This document shows positions 3,101-13,186 of a stretch of 35,723 nt of DNA, piece after piece. The DNA comes from an uncultured Oscillospiraceae bacterium (lineage in GTDB: Bacteria > Bacillota > Clostridia > Oscillospirales > Oscillospiraceae). Below the pieces are notes generated by a model that was given only the letters and a program-made list of their open reading frames with translations, was not told where the DNA came from and did no database searches. The first letter of the stretch is position 1. Each line of letters starts with the position of its first letter. Made by a program: the position numbers and the translations under genes. The stretch is taken from contig CANRLF010000019.1 in NCBI GenBank assembly GCA_947631395.1, forward strand, positions 1 through 35,723, read 5' to 3'.

Positions 3101-5758
3101 TTAGAAGTCCCTTTCAGATGTGTCCTTAAATCCAAGCTCCGGGCCCGGGTCCTCTCCGGCCACGCCCTCTTTCCACTCCCAGCCGGTGACCCGGATGACG
3201 ACGATCTTCCCGTCGCCCTTATATACCCGGCTTATCTCCGCGCCGGACATGTTGGAGTAGTATAGCCCCAATGTGTGGTCGTCACCGTAGATGTGAAGGC
3301 TTGAGTGGGCGCTGTCAAGCTCCCCTATCTCCTCGGCCCTGCCGCCCTTGGCGGTGTAGAAGGTCCAGCTGTCGCCGTCCGAGACTATGAGCTCCCGCAC
3401 TCCGTCAAAGTCCATGTCAAAGGTCGCCCACTTCGCTCCCTCAGGGGCCTTGTCGAGGATAGCGTCATACCCCGTATACTGCCCCACTCCGTCAAGGAGC
3501 CAGCTGTCGCCCACGTCGGCGGTTGGTACAGCCGTACCGGGCACGGCGTACTCGTCGTCCCTCCCCAGCAGCCTGTGGGAGAGCTCCTTTTCCGTCACCA
3601 CATACCCGTTGTAGCCTATCTCGCTTATGGTCTCATAGCCCATGTGGCCCTCAAGCTTTATAAGCTTCCCGTCCTTATCGTATAGCAGCGAATGGCTCAT
3701 GCCGAACTCGCCCAGCACCATAAGGCCGCCCTTCTCCATGGTGTATACCCTTGCCGTGGCCTCGGCCTCATTCGCGCCCGTCACGACGATGAGCTCCGGG
3801 TAGTGGTCGCCGGTAATGTCGAACATGGCGTATTCCCGGTACAGCGCGTCCTTCGCAAGCTCCCGATCAAGCGCCGCCAGCACACCGGCGTAGTCGTTGG
3901 GCTTGCCGGAGTCATCAGGCAGGGGCTCATTATTGCCCGAGTACGTCGTCTTTTTGCTGTCCACCAGCACCAGGTTTCCGTTTTTGTCGGGCTTATAAAA
4001 ATCTCTGGTGTACTCGCTCCCGCCCTCTCCGGATTTATACTCCGCGATGACCTGGCCGTTTTCCTTATCCACCGTGGCCCCCTGGAGCCTCATGGCGTAC
4101 TCGAACCTGCCCGCCTCGCTGTGCCAGAAGAAGTAGTAGTGTGGTATGGTGTTGTTCGTCACCCAGCCGAACACCTCGATGTCGGAACTGCCGTCAAAGT
4201 TCATGTCAAGCACATTGACCGCCTCGTCCACGCTCCAGCAGTCGGTGTAGCCCTCGCCCACACTGCCGGATACGAAGTCCTCGCCGATGTCCGCAAGGCG
4301 TATTATCTGGGCTGGCTTTGTCCGGCCAATGGCCGACATGTCGTATATCCTCAGCTCGCTTACGCCGTATCTGCCGTCCCCGCCGGCCTTGCCGATGACG
4401 TCAAGCTCCATGGGAATGTCCTTCTGGCCTCCACGTCCCGCCACGGCAAACTCTATCGTTTTCAGAACGCTGTCGCCCGCGGGCAGGTCGTTCACGCTCA
4501 TTTTCTTTTTGCAGTAGTCGCGCACGGCCCTGACGTCCAGCTTATCGTTGGGTATATCCGCCTTTATGCTGTCCATGAGCTCCCACTCAAGCCCGTATTC
4601 CTTCCCCTCCAGGTACGTGAATATCCTCACGTCCCTGTAAGCCTGCCCGGCGGGACTCACGTAGTCGAGGAGCACCAGCACGTCTGTCTTGTCATCGCCG
4701 TTCAGGTCCTCAAAGCTCACCGCCGCCACGCTCTTCAGCTCAGAGTCGTTATACATTGGGTGGAACTCGTAGTCCGAGACTCTGCCGTCCTCCGAGAGGA
4801 AGAACCGCACGTCGTCAAACTCCGGAGTGGGCCGGTAGGTTATGAAGTTTGTCTTGCCCCAGCCGGGCATTACCTCCTCAAAGCTCTGTCCCTCCCAGAT
4901 ATACTCAGGATCCAGCACCACGTCCGCGCCGTATTTGACCGCCGGGATCTCCGGGGGCAGGTCCGGGACATTCACCCGGCTCAACACTTCCCAGTTTATG
5001 GAGCCCGCCAGCTCCTCAAGCTCCGCCCTGGATATGGGCCCGCCGAAGATATTGTCGCCCTGGGTGCCGGTAAGCACGTTTATGATGACGAAGCACCCGT
5101 CAAAATCCGCGGCGATGATGGACTTGGAGTCGCCCAGCACCAGGCACACCTTAGTGCCGTCAACGTCGATGTTCCAGTTCTCCGGATCATCCCCCAGAGC
5201 CGACGCCTGAAGGGATGTATCCACCAAGCTCCCCTTCACCGAGCGGAACAGCTGATAGCCGATGGTCGTGCCGTCGGCGCGCTTATACTCCCCGTCCATG
5301 CCGAAGGTGCCGTTTTCGTAGATAAAGGCCGCCCATCTCTCGTGGCGCTCGTCGAAAAGCTCTCCGCCCTGGAGCTTTTTCATGTCCTCGTAGGTGAAGG
5401 TCTCGCACCGCTCAGGCACCGTGAGGCCGTACTTCTCAGCGGCCGCCTCCAGCGAGAGCACGCCGTCCAGATATTCGCCCAGCGCCTTCGACTCCGCCGT
5501 GTCGGTAAGGCCGAGCATGGATATGATGCCGCCGTCCTCGCGGTTTTTCTCCATGACAATGTCCGACATACCGAAGAAGCCCGTGGCCGAGGCCGTTATC
5601 CCCAGCGCCGCCAGTACCGCCACGGCGGCGGCGATGAGCATGGTTTTCCTTATGGGAAACACCTTTTTATTAGTCTTCATTTTCTCGAAATCCTCCAGTT
5701 TGAACTCGTAGGAGGACGTGACGTGAGAGAACGTCTCTTTATAAAGATTATTACTCAT
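3101..5758 (-). CDS. Anti-sigma-like one-pass membrane protein with FG-GAP-like extracellular repeats
   Basis: An 885-residue protein encoded immediately after an ECF sigma factor; its ATG overlaps the sigma stop by four bases (5755-5758). Residues 1-38 are a short cytoplasmic part (YEFKLEDFEKMKTNKK) that could bind the sigma factor. Residues 39-60 form one membrane helix, and the remaining ~825 residues are predicted outside. The outer part has four Asp-rich blocks of FG-GAP/VCBS style, near residues 351-360 (DLNGDDKTDV), 518-527 (DMNFDGSSDI), 647-656 (DITGDHYPEL) and 781-790 (DMDFDGVREL). These resemble calcium-binding loops of integrin-type propeller blades. There is no zinc-anti-sigma motif. 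Position and topology argue for an anti-sigma sensor; this is inference. No known ligand can be assigned. Confidence 0.7.
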   Translation of the reverse strand: MSNNLYKETFSHVTSSYEFKLEDFEKMKTNKKVFPIRKTMLIAAAVAVLAALGITASATGFFGMSDIVMEKNREDGGIISMLGLTDTAESKALGEYLDGVLSLEAAAEKYGLTVPERCETFTYEDMKKLQGGELFDERHERWAAFIYENGTFGMDGEYKRADGTTIGYQLFRSVKGSLVDTSLQASALGDDPENWNIDVDGTKVCLVLGDSKSIIAADFDGCFVIINVLTGTQGDNIFGGPISRAELEELAGSINWEVLSRVNVPDLPPEIPAVKYGADVVLDPEYIWEGQSFEEVMPGWGKTNFITYRPTPEFDDVRFFLSEDGRVSDYEFHPMYNDSELKSVAAVSFEDLNGDDKTDVLVLLDYVSPAGQAYRDVRIFTYLEGKEYGLEWELMDSIKADIPNDKLDVRAVRDYCKKKMSVNDLPAGDSVLKTIEFAVAGRGGQKDIPMELDVIGKAGGDGRYGVSELRIYDMSAIGRTKPAQIIRLADIGEDFVSGSVGEGYTDCWSVDEAVNVLDMNFDGSSDIEVFGWVTNNTIPHYYFFWHSEAGRFEYAMRLQGATVDKENGQVIAEYKSGEGGSEYTRDFYKPDKNGNLVLVDSKKTTYSGNNEPLPDDSGKPNDYAGVLAALDRELAKDALYREYAMFDITGDHYPELIVVTGANEAEATARVYTMEKGGLMVLGEFGMSHSLLYDKDGKLIKLEGHMGYETISEIGYNGYVVTEKELSHRLLGRDDEYAVPGTAVPTADVGDSWLLDGVGQYTGYDAILDKAPEGAKWATFDMDFDGVRELIVSDGDSWTFYTAKGGRAEEIGELDSAHSSLHIYGDDHTLGLYYSNMSGAEISRVYKGDGKIVVIRVTGWEWKEGVAGEDPGPELGFKDTSERDF

Positions 5759-6234
5759 TTTACCCTGACCTCCTCAAGCTCAGCACGTAATATTGCCCTG
5801 GCGCGTGAAAGCCGCGTAGTCACCGCCGACTCGCTTATTTCCATTATGCGCCCTATCTCTTTGACGGAATATTCCTCATAATAAAACAGGTACAGCGGCA
5901 CACGGTATTTTTCAGGCAGCGACATGACCGCGGTGAAGAGCCCTATCTGCTCCTCCGCCTCGAATGGCACCGAAATGGCCATCTCCTCCGGCGGCGTGGG
6001 GAAGCGGCGTTTTTCCGCCCTCGCCAGGTTCTTGCAGAAGTTCAGCGTCACCCTGATCATCCAGCGTTTCACGTGTTCGTCGCCCTCGAACCGCTCTCCG
6101 GATAAGTAAAGGCGCATCAGCACCTCCTGCACCGCGTCCTCGGCGTCCTCCGGGTTCCCCAGAAAGTTCAGGGCCACCCGGTACACCGTGTCCTTATATC
6201 TCTCAGCGTAACCGCTGAATATTTCGCTGTCCAT
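5755..6234 (-). CDS. ECF-family RNA polymerase sigma factor
   Basis: The 159-residue protein has the two-domain layout of extracytoplasmic-function sigma factors. Sigma region 2 (about residues 5-75) contains FLGNPEDAEDAVQEVLMRLY, and sigma region 4 (about 105-155) contains LPEKYRVPLYLFYYEEYSVKEIGRIM followed by the recognition helix ESAVTTRLSRARAILR. It is first in an operon with the membrane anti-sigma-like protein and overlaps its start, the standard sigma/anti-sigma arrangement that balances their amounts. An ECF-type promoter just upstream suggests autoregulation. The trigger is unknown; a cell-surface signal is likely given the partner's outer domain. Confidence 0.92.
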   Translation of the reverse strand: MDSEIFSGYAERYKDTVYRVALNFLGNPEDAEDAVQEVLMRLYLSGERFEGDEHVKRWMIRVTLNFCKNLARAEKRRFPTPPEEMAISVPFEAEEQIGLFTAVMSLPEKYRVPLYLFYYEEYSVKEIGRIMEISESAVTTRLSRARAILRAELEEVRVK

Positions 6235-6417: not shown

Positions 6418-6963
6418 TCAGTCGTTTAATGTAAGCTTCGCCTTTTCAAGCGCCATAACGATTATGGGGATAAGCACTATATGCAAAATTATCCCCGGCA
6501 CGGCATCAAGCACCGCCCCGGCCAAAAAGGCCGAGAAGGGGAAGGTCGAGTGCTGAAGCCCCGCCAGCGCGAACCGGACTACGCCCCACACGACCCTTCC
6601 GGCTATCATGGCGGAGATGAGCGATACGTATACGCTCCATGGCTTTCTCGGCAAGAGCTTATATAGTAGCCCCGACACCGCCCCGTAGGTGGCTATCTCG
6701 AACGCCATCCCTATGGCCTTCGGCATCATTGGCGGCATACCGAAAATAAGCGAGCGCAGTATGGGCGAAATGAACCCCACCGCCAGCCCCCAGGGCCAGC
6801 CGCATATAAAGCCGCACAGTATGGCCGGTATATGCAACGGCGACAGCGCCGCTCCTATCTCCGGTATCTGCCCCGTCAAAAACGGCAGTACCATCGCCAG
6901 CGCCAGAAACAGGGCCGAATAGACTATTTTACGTACATACAGCGTCGATTTTGTCTTTTCCAT
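6418..6963 (-). CDS. Energy-coupling-factor transporter substrate-binding (S) component
   Basis: A 181-residue integral membrane protein with about six hydrophobic segments (roughly 11-30, 44-75 as two, 82-103, 111-133, 145-171). The N-terminal KIVYSALFLALAMVLPF and the segment LSPLHIPAILCGFICGWPWG followed by GMPPMMPKAIGMAFE are typical of S components of group II ECF transporters. These bind a vitamin or precursor and dock on a shared EcfA-A'-T module, which is not in this window. Similar sequences have been annotated as predicted pantothenate or other vitamin carriers, but I cannot fix the substrate. Start ATG 6963 is preceded by AAAGGAGGTAG. It is a single-gene unit with its own promoter, leader and terminator. 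Confidence 0.85.
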   Translation of the reverse strand: MEKTKSTLYVRKIVYSALFLALAMVLPFLTGQIPEIGAALSPLHIPAILCGFICGWPWGLAVGFISPILRSLIFGMPPMMPKAIGMAFEIATYGAVSGLLYKLLPRKPWSVYVSLISAMIAGRVVWGVVRFALAGLQHSTFPFSAFLAGAVLDAVPGIILHIVLIPIIVMALEKAKLTLND

Positions 6964-7055: not shown

Positions 7056-7190
7056 ACAATATAAGTAATACTCACTCCCCGCGACTCCAGCCGCGCCCGC
7101 CGACTTCAGCCGACAACCCCATTATATCCCCCAATCTCCCCCCTTGTCAACCCCCCCCCAATAAAATCACAGCCCATACTTGAGCTTTTT

Positions 7191-7361
7191 TCACTCAATT
7201 TCGTCGTCCTCCGCCGTCTCAATGTCCTCCTCAGTGATACCCAGGTCCTTCATTACCTGCTCCCAAGGTATAGGCTTACACGCGGCCCCGTCGTGCTCCG
7301 GCACTGTCTCAGGTTCCGTCTTTTTAACGGGCTCAAATATATTCCCGGCCATTTTTGTCAT
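7191..7361 (-). CDS. Small acidic hypothetical protein
   Basis: A 56-residue product starting MTKMAGNIFEPVKKTEPETV and ending in the acidic tail ITEEDIETAEDDEIE. The start at 7361 is chosen because its ATG overlaps the TGA of the DUF951 gene (ATGA) and GGCGGAGGA lies just upstream; a longer frame upstream is only the overlap with that gene. It is last in the exonuclease-rarA-DUF951 operon. No domain is recognised. Confidence 0.65.
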   Translation of the reverse strand: MTKMAGNIFEPVKKTEPETVPEHDGAACKPIPWEQVMKDLGITEEDIETAEDDEIE

Positions 7362-7543
7362 TCCTCCGCCCTCGCAATCCTCTTTATCCCCTTCTCCACC
7401 TTGCTTCGCGGGGCCATGATCTCCCGGCCACAGCCGAGGCACCGCATCTTAAAATCCGCGCCCACTCTCGTGATCTTCCACTCCGCGCTTCCGCAGGGGT
7501 GTGGCTTTTTCATGGTGACCACGTCGCCGACTCTAACGTCCAT
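7358..7543 (-). CDS. DUF951 family protein
   Basis: A 61-residue protein opening MDVRVGDVVTMKKPHPCG, with CLGCGREIMAPRSKVEKGIK. This is the DUF951 family (COG4481), small proteins widespread in Firmicutes with a conserved Cys pattern (PHPCG and CLGCG) that suggests a metal site or fold stabilisation. Its function is not established. It starts inside the last codons of rarA (7533-7543 overlap) and its stop overlaps the next start, so the three genes are translationally linked. Confidence 0.9.
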   Translation of the reverse strand: MDVRVGDVVTMKKPHPCGSAEWKITRVGADFKMRCLGCGREIMAPRSKVEKGIKRIARAEE

Positions 7544-8807
7544 CGTCCTCCCCCTTTATGAGCTCCCAATATTTTTTCGCCGCCTGCTCTGTCTTGTTAT
7601 CGCCGTATTCATAATACTTCGCGTCCTTTATATTGTCCGGCAGATACTGCTGGCGCACCCAGTGGCCCGGGAAATTGTGGGGATACAGGTACCCCTGCTC
7701 CCGCTCAAAGCCCGCGCCGTCGGCGTGGACGTTCTGGAGCTCCCGGGGTATGGGCCCCGCCTTTCCCGCCCTCACGTCGTCAAACGCCCGGTCGATCGCC
7801 ATGACCACGGAATTTGACTTGGGGGCCGTGGCTAAAAGTATCACCGCCTGGGCAAGGGGCAGTCTGGCCTCCGGAAGTCCCAGCTGAAGGGCCGAGTCCA
7901 CGCAGGACTTGACTATCGCCGCGGCCTGTGGATAGGCCATACCTATGTCCTCGCTTGCTGAGCACAGTATCCTCCTGCATGCCCCCGCCATGTCCCCGGC
8001 CTCCAGGGCCCTTGCCAGATAGTGGAGCGCCGCGTCCACGTCGGAGCCCCGGAGGGACTTCATAAGGGCGCTGACCGCGTCAAAGTGCTGATCCCCGTCC
8101 CGGTCATAGCGCAGGCTGTTCTTCTGGGCGGCAATCTTGGCGTCGTCGAGGGTTATCCTGAGCTTCCCGCTCTCCCCTCTCGCCGCCGCGGTGAACAGGA
8201 GCTCCACGGCGTTGACGCTCTTTCTCACGTCCCCTCCCGAGGAGGCGGCGATGTGTTCCAATACCCCCTCCTCGATGTCCGCCTCGCCGAAGCGTTCCGC
8301 GGCGATCTTCGCCGCACGCTCCACCGCCTTTAGCACGTCCTGTGTTGTGAGCTCCTTGAACTCAAATATGGTGGAGCGGCTGAGCACCGCGTTGTATACG
8401 TAAAAATACGGGTTCTCCGTGGTGGAGGCGATGAGTGTTATTTTTCCGTTCTCGATAAACTCCAAAAGGCTCTGCTGCTGCTTTTTGTTAAAATACTGTA
8501 TCTCGTCGAGGTACAAAAGCACCCCGTTCGGCACAAGGAAGGTATCCAGCTCCGCTATTATGTCCTTTATGTCCTGCAATGACGCGGTGGTGGCGTTGAG
8601 TCGCCGGAGCTCCCGCTTCGTCTCTTTGGCGATTATATTTGCCACCGTCGTCTTGCCGGAGCCTGAGGGGCCGTAGAATATCATGTTTGGTATCTGCCCG
8701 GATCGTATTATCCGCCGCAGGAGCCCGTCCTCCCCCAGTATGTGCTGTTGTCCGTATACCTCATCCAGGGTCTGCGGCCGTATCTCGTCAGCTAAGGGTC
8801 TGTACAT
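7533..8807 (-). CDS. rarA: Replication-associated recombination protein A (RarA/MgsA), AAA+ ATPase
   Basis: A 424-residue AAA+ ATPase of the clamp-loader clade that acts at stalled replication forks. Walker A is GPSGSGKT at residues 46-53, Walker B is LLYLDEIQ with D101 and E102, sensor 1 is ASTTENPYF near 127-135, and an arginine finger candidate is SRS at about 143-145. The C-terminal half contains the lid and tetramerisation region (SRxGD-like SLRGSDVDAALHYLARAL) and the family ending PGHWVRQQYLPDNIKDAKYY. Length and motifs are complete. GAGGTGAGATGTC precedes the ATG, eleven bases after the exonuclease gene. Confidence 0.96.
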   Translation of the reverse strand: MYRPLADEIRPQTLDEVYGQQHILGEDGLLRRIIRSGQIPNMIFYGPSGSGKTTVANIIAKETKRELRRLNATTASLQDIKDIIAELDTFLVPNGVLLYLDEIQYFNKKQQQSLLEFIENGKITLIASTTENPYFYVYNAVLSRSTIFEFKELTTQDVLKAVERAAKIAAERFGEADIEEGVLEHIAASSGGDVRKSVNAVELLFTAAARGESGKLRITLDDAKIAAQKNSLRYDRDGDQHFDAVSALMKSLRGSDVDAALHYLARALEAGDMAGACRRILCSASEDIGMAYPQAAAIVKSCVDSALQLGLPEARLPLAQAVILLATAPKSNSVVMAIDRAFDDVRAGKAGPIPRELQNVHADGAGFEREQGYLYPHNFPGHWVRQQYLPDNIKDAKYYEYGDNKTEQAAKKYWELIKGEDDGR

Positions 8808-8818
8808 GACATCTCACC

Positions 8819-9391
8819 TCACATTGGCTCTCCCACAGGCGGGAGGTAATATTCTCGCTTGAACTCCCCGATGCTCATGCCGTGGGAAAGCTCGTCTATA
8901 AGTATCATGGCCGCGGCGTGGGCGTCGCTCCCGGCCCGGTGGTGATCCAAGGCTATGTCCAGATAATCGCACAGCGTGTCCAGCTTTTTGTTTGGTAAAA
9001 AGGGATAACAGCGCCTCGCCATCTGACAGGTGCAGGCGTAGGGCGCTGAGTGCCGCCAGAATATGCCGTAATGCCCCAGGCATTTTGCCAGCACACCCAT
9101 GTCGAAGGGGGCGTTGTGTGCGATTAACACCCCGCCGTCAAATATCGGCCGGAGCTCCCGCCAAACCTCCGGGAATGTGGGAGCCTCCGCCGCCGCGGCT
9201 GGCGTTATACCGGTGAGGGCTATGTTGAACCTGTCGAACCTCGCCTCCGGGTTTATGAGAGTGTCGAAATCCCATACTATATGTCCGTCCTCCACCACCG
9301 TGACCCCGATGGCGCTCATCCTGTCGTTTTTGAAATTCGGCGTCTCCACGTCGAATACCACAAATCTGTCCGTACCCTCACCCTCTTTCAT
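8819..9391 (-). CDS. DnaQ-like DEDDh 3'-5' exonuclease
   Basis: An exonuclease of the DNA polymerase III epsilon type. Motifs are VVFDVETPN (Exo I, D and E), HNAPFDMGVL (Exo II, D) and HHRAGSDAHAAAM (Exo III, H and D), so the active site is complete. It stands alone, without a polymerase domain. The frame is open upstream to 9430, but a good sigma-A promoter occupies 9402-9430, so translation must begin at or after ATG 9391. That start would leave a leader of only a few bases; GTG 9361, behind GAGGGTGAGGG, is the alternative. It heads the operon with rarA, consistent with a DNA repair or replication role. Confidence 0.88.
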   Translation of the reverse strand: MKEGEGTDRFVVFDVETPNFKNDRMSAIGVTVVEDGHIVWDFDTLINPEARFDRFNIALTGITPAAAAEAPTFPEVWRELRPIFDGGVLIAHNAPFDMGVLAKCLGHYGIFWRHSAPYACTCQMARRCYPFLPNKKLDTLCDYLDIALDHHRAGSDAHAAAMILIDELSHGMSIGEFKREYYLPPVGEPM

Positions 9392-9401
9392 CCCTGCGGA
9401 T

Positions 9402-9453
9402 ATTATATCACCGCCCGTGGACTGTTGCAAGTATCCGGGATAAGTGTTATAAT
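9402..9453. promoter_or_regulatory. Symmetrical divergent promoter with one shared -35 box
   Basis: The palindromic hexamer TTGCAA (9425-9430) reads as a -35 box on both strands. On the plus strand it is followed by 17 bases and an extended -10, TGTTATAAT (hexamer 9448-9453), driving nth. On the minus strand it is followed by 17 bases and TGATATAAT (hexamer 9407-9402), driving the exonuclease operon. Both spacings are exactly 17 and both -10 boxes are perfect with a TG extension. Only one polymerase could occupy the site at a time. Confidence 0.85.
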
Positions 9454-9483: not shown

Positions 9484-10116
9484 ATGGATAAAGCCGTTTC
9501 CGATGAGATAGTGGCGAGACTTGAAAGGGAGTACCCCTTAGCTGAGTGCACCTTAGATTACGACGACGCCTACCACCTCTTAGTCAGCGTCCGCCTTGCC
9601 GCCCAGTGCACCGACGAGCGCGTGAACCAGGTCACCCCCGCCCTCTTTGAACGCTACCCCACGGTACACGATATGGCCGTGGCGAACGTGGAGGACGTGG
9701 AAAATTACATACGCTCCTGCGGCTTTTACCACGGCAAGGCCCGCGACATAGTGAACGCCGCCATAATGATCGAGACACAGTTCAACGGCCGTGTCCCGGA
9801 CAATATGGATGACCTTTTGAAGCTCCCCGGCGTGGGTCGCAAAAGCGCCAACCTCATTTTGGGCGACGTATATAACGTCCCCGGGAGCGTCGTTGTGGAT
9901 ACCCACTGCATACGAATAACGAACCTCTTAGGCTACGTCGACACAAAGGACCCGGCGAAGATAGAGCCCATCCTCCGCGCCATCCTGCCGCCGGATAAAT
10001 CAAACGACTTTTGCCACCGCATGGTCCTCCACGGCCGCGCCGTCTGCGTCGCCCGCCGCCCCCAGTGCGAATCCTGCGTCCTCCGCGACCTCTGCCGACA
10101 CGCCTCCGGAAATTAA
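9484..10116 (+). CDS. nth: Endonuclease III (DNA glycosylase/AP lyase)
   Basis: Base-excision repair enzyme that removes oxidised pyrimidines and nicks abasic sites. It has the helix-hairpin-helix LPGVGRKSANLIL with the catalytic Lys, the catalytic Asp in VVVDTHCIRI, and a C-terminal 4Fe-4S motif with spacing C-x6-C-x2-C-x5-C (CVARRPQCESCVLRDLC). The start is set at ATG 9484 because the GTG at 9454 directly follows the -10 hexamer and would precede the transcription start. AAAAAAGGTCGTGA gives a modest Shine-Dalgarno. The product is 210 residues, normal for the family. It diverges from the exonuclease operon, placing two DNA-maintenance units under one promoter. Confidence 0.95.
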   Translation: MDKAVSDEIVARLEREYPLAECTLDYDDAYHLLVSVRLAAQCTDERVNQVTPALFERYPTVHDMAVANVEDVENYIRSCGFYHGKARDIVNAAIMIETQFNGRVPDNMDDLLKLPGVGRKSANLILGDVYNVPGSVVVDTHCIRITNLLGYVDTKDPAKIEPILRAILPPDKSNDFCHRMVLHGRAVCVARRPQCESCVLRDLCRHASGN

Positions 10117-12718: not shown

Positions 12719-13186
12719 ATGACAGCCACGGAAAGTACCGAACGGTTGGCGTCGAAGCTGAAGATAATATCCAACAGCTTCCGCCGTATAGCCGATGAGT
12801 CCACCTCGGAGCTTGGCATCACGGGTATGCAGGCGTTCCTGCTCGAGTATCTGCGCAGGAAATCCGGCTCTCCCCCGTGCCAGCACGACATCGAGGAGCG
12901 TTTCAACATAAAGCACCCCACCGCCACGGGACTTATGGCGCGGCTGTGCGAAAAGGGCTATGTGGAATTTAAGCCGGACATGTACGACAGGCGCATGAAG
13001 CGCATATTCATCACCCGGTCCGGCATGGACGCGGCTGAGCGCACCAGGTCCCGGCTGGAGGGCATGGAGGAGCGCCTGACCTCCGGGTTTTCCCCCGAGG
13101 AGCTCAGTACCCTCCACGCGCTTCTGGATAAGCTGGTGGAAAACGCGAAGAACGACGGCCGCTGTCGGCCCAAGGAAGGAGAATAA
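12719..13186 (+). CDS. MarR-family transcriptional regulator
   Basis: A 155-residue winged-helix regulator. The DNA-binding core (about residues 35-105) includes TGMQAFLLEYLRRK, the recognition region IEERFNIKHPTATGLMARLCEKGYV and the wing MYDRRMKRIFITRSG. It is the first gene of an operon with two ABC exporter subunits, and MarR proteins in this position usually repress the exporter until a drug or metabolite binds. An odd feature is that AGGAGG (12713-12718) abuts the ATG with no spacer. No ATG, GTG or TTG lies in frame at normal distance, so either the start is inefficient or a non-standard codon is used. Confidence 0.9.
   Translation: MTATESTERLASKLKIISNSFRRIADESTSELGITGMQAFLLEYLRRKSGSPPCQHDIEERFNIKHPTATGLMARLCEKGYVEFKPDMYDRRMKRIFITRSGMDAAERTRSRLEGMEERLTSGFSPEELSTLHALLDKLVENAKNDGRCRPKEGE

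Follow-up and report, generated by a model that had tools for sequence, protein, structure and literature searches.

A palindromic -35 hexamer common to two predicted divergent promoters between nth and an exonuclease-rarA operon in an Oscillospiraceae bacterium

The 52-bp element that separates nth from a DnaQ-like exonuclease gene in an uncultured Oscillospiraceae bacterium very likely functions as a compact back-to-back pair of constitutive sigma-A-type promoters whose -35 hexamers coincide in one palindrome. The element reads ATTATA-17-TTGCAA-17-TATAAT at positions 9402-9453 of the window (the whole stretch of 35,723 nucleotides that was analysed), and inspection of the letters confirmed what an earlier sequence-only reading had pointed out, namely that the palindromic TTGCAA lies exactly 17 bp from an extended -10 on either side. 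As far as sequence can tell, this architecture is real, conserved, and recurrent, and is a novel variant of overlapping divergent promoters.

Geometry of the element and its flanking genes

A mechanical promoter scan rated both halves as promoter-like, each with a score of 10/12, a spacer of 17, and a TG before the -10, and both strands present the arrangement of sigma-A/sigma-70 housekeeping promoters (hexamers near TATAAT at -10 and TTGACA at -35, separated by 16-18 bp). Each side of the element resembles the ordinary extended -10 housekeeping promoter of Firmicutes, which combines TG-N-TATAAT with a 17-bp spacer; what sets the element apart is that a single -35 hexamer belongs to both promoters. 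The start site usually falls 7 bases past the -10, which is the rule behind the two predicted sites of Table 1. Since TTGCAA agrees with the -35 consensus at only four of six positions and the -10s are extended, the -35 could be less important than its degree of conservation implies.

Table 1. Features of the shared -35 element and its flanking genes (positions in the window)
Feature	Position	Strand	Basis or remark
-10 TATAAT of the exonuclease-rarA-DUF951 promoter (ATTATA on the + strand)	9402-9407	-	sequence, promoter scan; invariant in 19/19 congeners
TG-N extension (TGA) of the leftward -10	9408-9410	-	sequence; TG invariant in 19/19
Palindromic -35 hexamer TTGCAA	9425-9430	common to both	sequence, promoter scan; invariant in 19/19
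TG-N extension (TGT) of the rightward -10	9445-9447	+	TG and preceding G 9444 invariant in 19/19
-10 TATAAT of the nth promoter	9448-9453	+	sequence, promoter scan; TATACT in 7/19
Predicted start site, exonuclease operon	9395	-	inferred from -10 position
Predicted start site, nth	9460	+	inferred from -10 position
nth, endonuclease III, from ATG 9484	9484-10116	+	TIGR01083
DnaQ-like/RNase_T exonuclease, likely start ACG 9373-9371 after the GGGTGAGGG stretch	8819-9373	-	
rarA (MgsA/RarA AAA+ ATPase)	7533-8807	-	
DUF951 protein gene	7358-7543	-	

In the genome (2.57 Mb, 62 contigs), the 52-bp pattern occurs exactly once, and five sites match it with at most two mismatches. On a 22-point score composed of the 18 core letters and two points per TG, the element reaches 22/22, and the best value obtained from 40 dinucleotide shuffles of the window was 13-14.

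The identities assigned to the flanking genes by the sequence-only reading hold on both sides. To the right, the nth product matches TIGR01083 with 217.2 bits (cut-off 211.7); to the left, rarA and then the DUF951 gene lie downstream of the exonuclease gene, all on the minus strand. The longest open reading frames begin at TTG 9430 (minus strand) and GTG 9454 (plus strand), both upstream of the predicted start sites, so that the shorter starts already proposed for both first genes follow, provided that the promoters are used. For the exonuclease, ATG 9391 would leave a leader of 4 bases only. In this genome and in four congeners (L006-L009), an ACG is aligned with the ATG or GTG exonuclease start of the other congeners and is preceded by a similar GGGTG-rich, ribosome-binding-like stretch; moreover, L006-L009 carry an in-frame TAA upstream and no ATG, GTG, or TTG until a GTG four codons past the ACG. 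The nth tree places L005-L007 in a separate group from L008-L009, although the forks between them have weak support. The exonuclease would start either at the ACG, or at that downstream GTG, or, in this genome alone, at ATG 9391 with its 4-base leader, and the aligned sequences make the ACG the likely start codon.

Elsewhere in the window, a promoter that matches the consensus at 12/12 positions, with an 18-bp spacer, lies on the minus strand at 7121-7150, approximately 160 bp upstream of an open reading frame at 6418-6963 on the same strand. No Rfam family was found in the window at gathering score.

Conservation and history in the genus

When 60 relatives were searched with the nth protein as query, 29 same-genus loci, this one included, were obtained; five of the 34 same-genus genomes were left out, having partial, split, or distant-only matches or a match for which no locus was fetched. 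The exonuclease gene is divergent to nth in 20 of the 29 genomes, and an alignment of relatives, which the sequence-only reading had named as a check, showed that 19 of these 20 preserve TTGCAA, the 17-bp spacing on each side, and a TG extension at both -10s. These 19 congeners are kin with 17 distinct spacer sequences and do not amount to 19 independent trials; in 12 of them all 18 core letters agree, with TATAAT as both -10s, and in the other seven the nth-side -10 is TATACT. Mean pairwise identity among the 19 is 0.973 for the 18 core letters, as against 0.438 for the 28 spacer letters, the pattern of an element kept by selection at orthologous loci; it is 0.383 for the 24 letters just outside the element and 0.650 for the third codon positions of nth. 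Of the 23 invariant columns, 21 are promoter letters, and the other two are G 9431 and G 9444. A core conserved between diverged spacers argues that selection maintains the promoter letters and the length of the spacers but leaves their sequence free.

The single exception among the 20, L025, carries on the nth side a CATAAT with TTGACA at a distance of 17 bp and lacks a -10 at the mirrored position. On the nth tree, whose root serves for drawing only, L025 adjoins the 19 congeners with the shared element, which form one side of a branch with support 96/96, and a single change suffices to account for their distribution.

Other congeners are organised differently. Specifically, in six of them nth lies downstream of an NFACT gene and shares the strand of rarA, and in three others (L024, L026, and L033) rarA is directly divergent to nth. 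In these three, the -10s face each other 14 bp apart, each -35 placed at 17 bp overlaps the opposite -10, and the nth-side -35 (TTTATT) is a poor match. At further rarA/nth loci of relatives, 33 bp separate the -10s, the -35s cross, and TTGCAA belongs to the rarA side alone (L056, L061-L063), or the -35s are separate (L057, L067), or the locus fits none of these registers (L058, L064, L065, L079); all these registers were read from the sequence by a simple score, and L051 repeats L024. Close divergent packing thus seems frequent at rarA/nth loci, and the coinciding palindromic -35 would be one solution to it, probably arrived at a single time within the examined part of the genus. Its origin is best placed in a lineage with the exonuclease gene between rarA and nth, and we propose that the element has been retained since then because any change of register would damage one promoter or the other.

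Recurrence at other gene pairs

A scan of 394 genomes of the order found the exact 52-bp pattern at 26 sites, distributed over 24 genomes; only three of these sites are at the gene pair described here, most being at other pairs. In the same 394 genomes, a control pattern with 21/21 spacing gave one site, and one with 21/17 spacing gave four, for which the fair equivalent is, by our own reckoning, approximately two, since the 21/17 pattern is not palindromic and has two orientations. Reversed-pattern controls gave no site for 17/17 and one for 21/21.

For two of the 26 sites no locus was fetched, and the counts that follow cover 23 fetched sites. Outward open reading frames of at least 150 aa are present on both sides at 18 of the 23, and the remaining five have a short one on one side (L115, L125, L130, L132, and L137); at 6/23 sites, an open reading frame of at least 60 aa spans the element (L117, L119, L122, L128, L130, and L131). 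Pfam was applied to both flanking proteins at nine sites, where 18 of 18 proteins were matched, in the pairs glycosyltransferase/IMP dehydrogenase (guaB), RecG/sigma-70-like factor, GDSL lipase/IF-2B family, PhoH/IreB (short, L115), YfbR-like/radical SAM, HAD/2-hydroxyacid dehydrogenase, DUF4855/amidohydrolase, hexapeptide transferase/DnaB_2, and MgtC/SpoU methylase. Judged by their translations, L121-L123 repeat the glycosyltransferase/IMP dehydrogenase pair, L134-L135 the RecG/sigma-70-like pair, and L119 the GDSL lipase/IF-2B pair. Only 21 of the 46 arms of the 23 sites carry the TG extension, which therefore does not belong to the wider pattern.

In four genomes of one family (L121-L124), the TTGCAA element lies at 1501-1552 of the locus, between the IMP dehydrogenase and glycosyltransferase genes; to judge from these sequences, of which L124 alone has the Pfam assignment, it apparently constitutes a second orthologous set. 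Beyond the order, few genomes have the exact pattern: it is present in 3/149 genomes of the phylum with this one included (2/148 others). One of these phylum genomes (G553) carries two identical 52-bp shared -35 elements, at C15:49637-49688 and C37:7184-7235, perhaps in a duplicated or mobile segment. A near-palindromic TTGACAA with 16/16 spacing was counted, with no matched control, at 29 sites in 27/394 genomes and is, on its face, as common as the TTGCAA variant.

Mechanism, rival readings, and significance

In the proposed mechanism, the self-reverse-complementary TTGCAA would allow sigma region 4 to dock in either orientation, after which sigma region 2 would melt the -10 on the side that it faces; the 17-bp spacers and the TG-extended TATAAT boxes would then direct transcription by the housekeeping sigma factor towards nth one way and towards exonuclease-rarA-DUF951 the other. 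That two polymerases cannot be accommodated simultaneously follows from the geometry, and with a single occupancy at a time their binding would be competitive. At the low, constitutive rates expected of housekeeping promoters, such competition would hardly couple the two outputs, so that the two repair operons should normally be expressed side by side, and a conditional coupling may arise under strong activation of one direction. The regulator genes in the window and the open reading frames that run across some of the order-wide sites weigh slightly against this reading.

The closest relatives of this arrangement in the literature are the Warman/Grainger bidirectional promoters, in which, according to PMC12825309 and PMC10268837, polymerase binds a symmetric core element in either orientation, the -10 is shared, and start sites lie 7-25 bp apart, with 18 bp the commonest distance and 10 and 23 also common. 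The element shares with the promoters so described a symmetric core sequence, its predicted use in either orientation, and the expected exclusion of one binding event by the other. It differs from them in having separate -10s, 40 bp apart, a shared -35, and predicted start sites 65 bp from each other, and so falls outside that class as defined there. The 36-bp bidirectional core of PMC12907893 also shares a -10. In the Pc/Pr pair of the Bacillus subtilis plasmid pLS20, divergent promoters overlap and polymerase occupies one at a time, as would be the case here; the switch reported in PMC4207663 combines DNA looping with promoters of widely differing strength and a regulator that acts on them in opposite directions, whereas the two halves of the present element match the consensus equally. 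None of the adjacent genes that were identified encodes a regulator, but a MarR-like gene lies approximately 3 kb away, and a regulator encoded at a distance may exist.

The sequence-only reading had taken the shared -35 as a built-in flip through which nth (base-excision repair) and exonuclease-rarA (fork repair) would be expressed alternately, a view that went unsupported and that we consider very improbable. The bar on two simultaneous polymerases and the retention of the element in 19/20 congeners with the gene pair speak for it; yet exclusion would span just one initiation and, in the absence of feedback, would leave no memory. Moreover, relatives carry nth and rarA in different registers or on one strand, L025 manages the same divergent genes with another -35, and the element also serves unrelated gene pairs. 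The E. coli shared -10 promoters bear on both sides of the question: in PMC12825309, strong activation of one direction brought out competition and repressed the opposite direction, but five of five tested bidirectional promoters were too weak at basal level for polymerases to compete. Within the window, nothing connects the MarR-like gene (12719-13186) or the sigma-70-like gene (5755-6234), approximately 3 kb to either side, to the element.

Equally improbable is that TTGCAA is mainly the operator core for a regulator of both operons, its promoter role being secondary. A palindrome between divergent promoters is the expected seat of a dimeric regulator, and G 9431, outside the hexamer, is invariant in 19/19 congeners; conservation, however, stops at that base, one beyond the hexamer, the flanks having the low identity of the spacers (0.438), and on this ground the operator reading was disfavoured; a site of 7-8 bp is also short for a dimer, and the hexamer with 17/17 spacing is found at many other gene pairs. 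Slightly less probable still is that one direction alone is a true promoter and the mirror half is a chance or weak by-product: TATAAT and TTGCAA are simple words and both promoters are predicted from sequence, but 19 genomes retain the two halves together, and a chance pairing is unlikely in view of the spacing controls. Chance as the source of the whole element is unlikely, a chance match having been rejected on the shuffles, the order-wide recurrence, and the spacing controls.

Beyond the back-to-back promoter pair at this locus, there is an even chance that the shared palindromic -35 represents a second, unnamed class of bidirectional bacterial promoter, repeatedly selected in clostridial lineages for compact divergent gene pairs. 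Because TTGCAA reads alike on both strands, a TATAAT placed 17 bp away on the opposite side would, under this class reading, suffice for bidirectionality. Surveys built on the definition of bidirectional promoters given in PMC10268837 and PMC12825309, which is based on a common -10 and on start sites separated by 7-25 bp, would miss the shared -35 geometry. Among the matches listed by a literature search in which "-35" phrases were approximated, no title or abstract opening mentions a palindromic -35 common to two promoters. At this locus, the promoters would also correct the gene starts, both first genes beginning later than their longest frames, and the exonuclease possibly at an ACG. Lastly, if the class holds true, polymerase competition may couple or quiet both outputs, and a conserved, sequence-searchable set of shared -35 elements would offer a direct test of the extent to which polymerase competition at the -35, by itself, couples adjacent genes.
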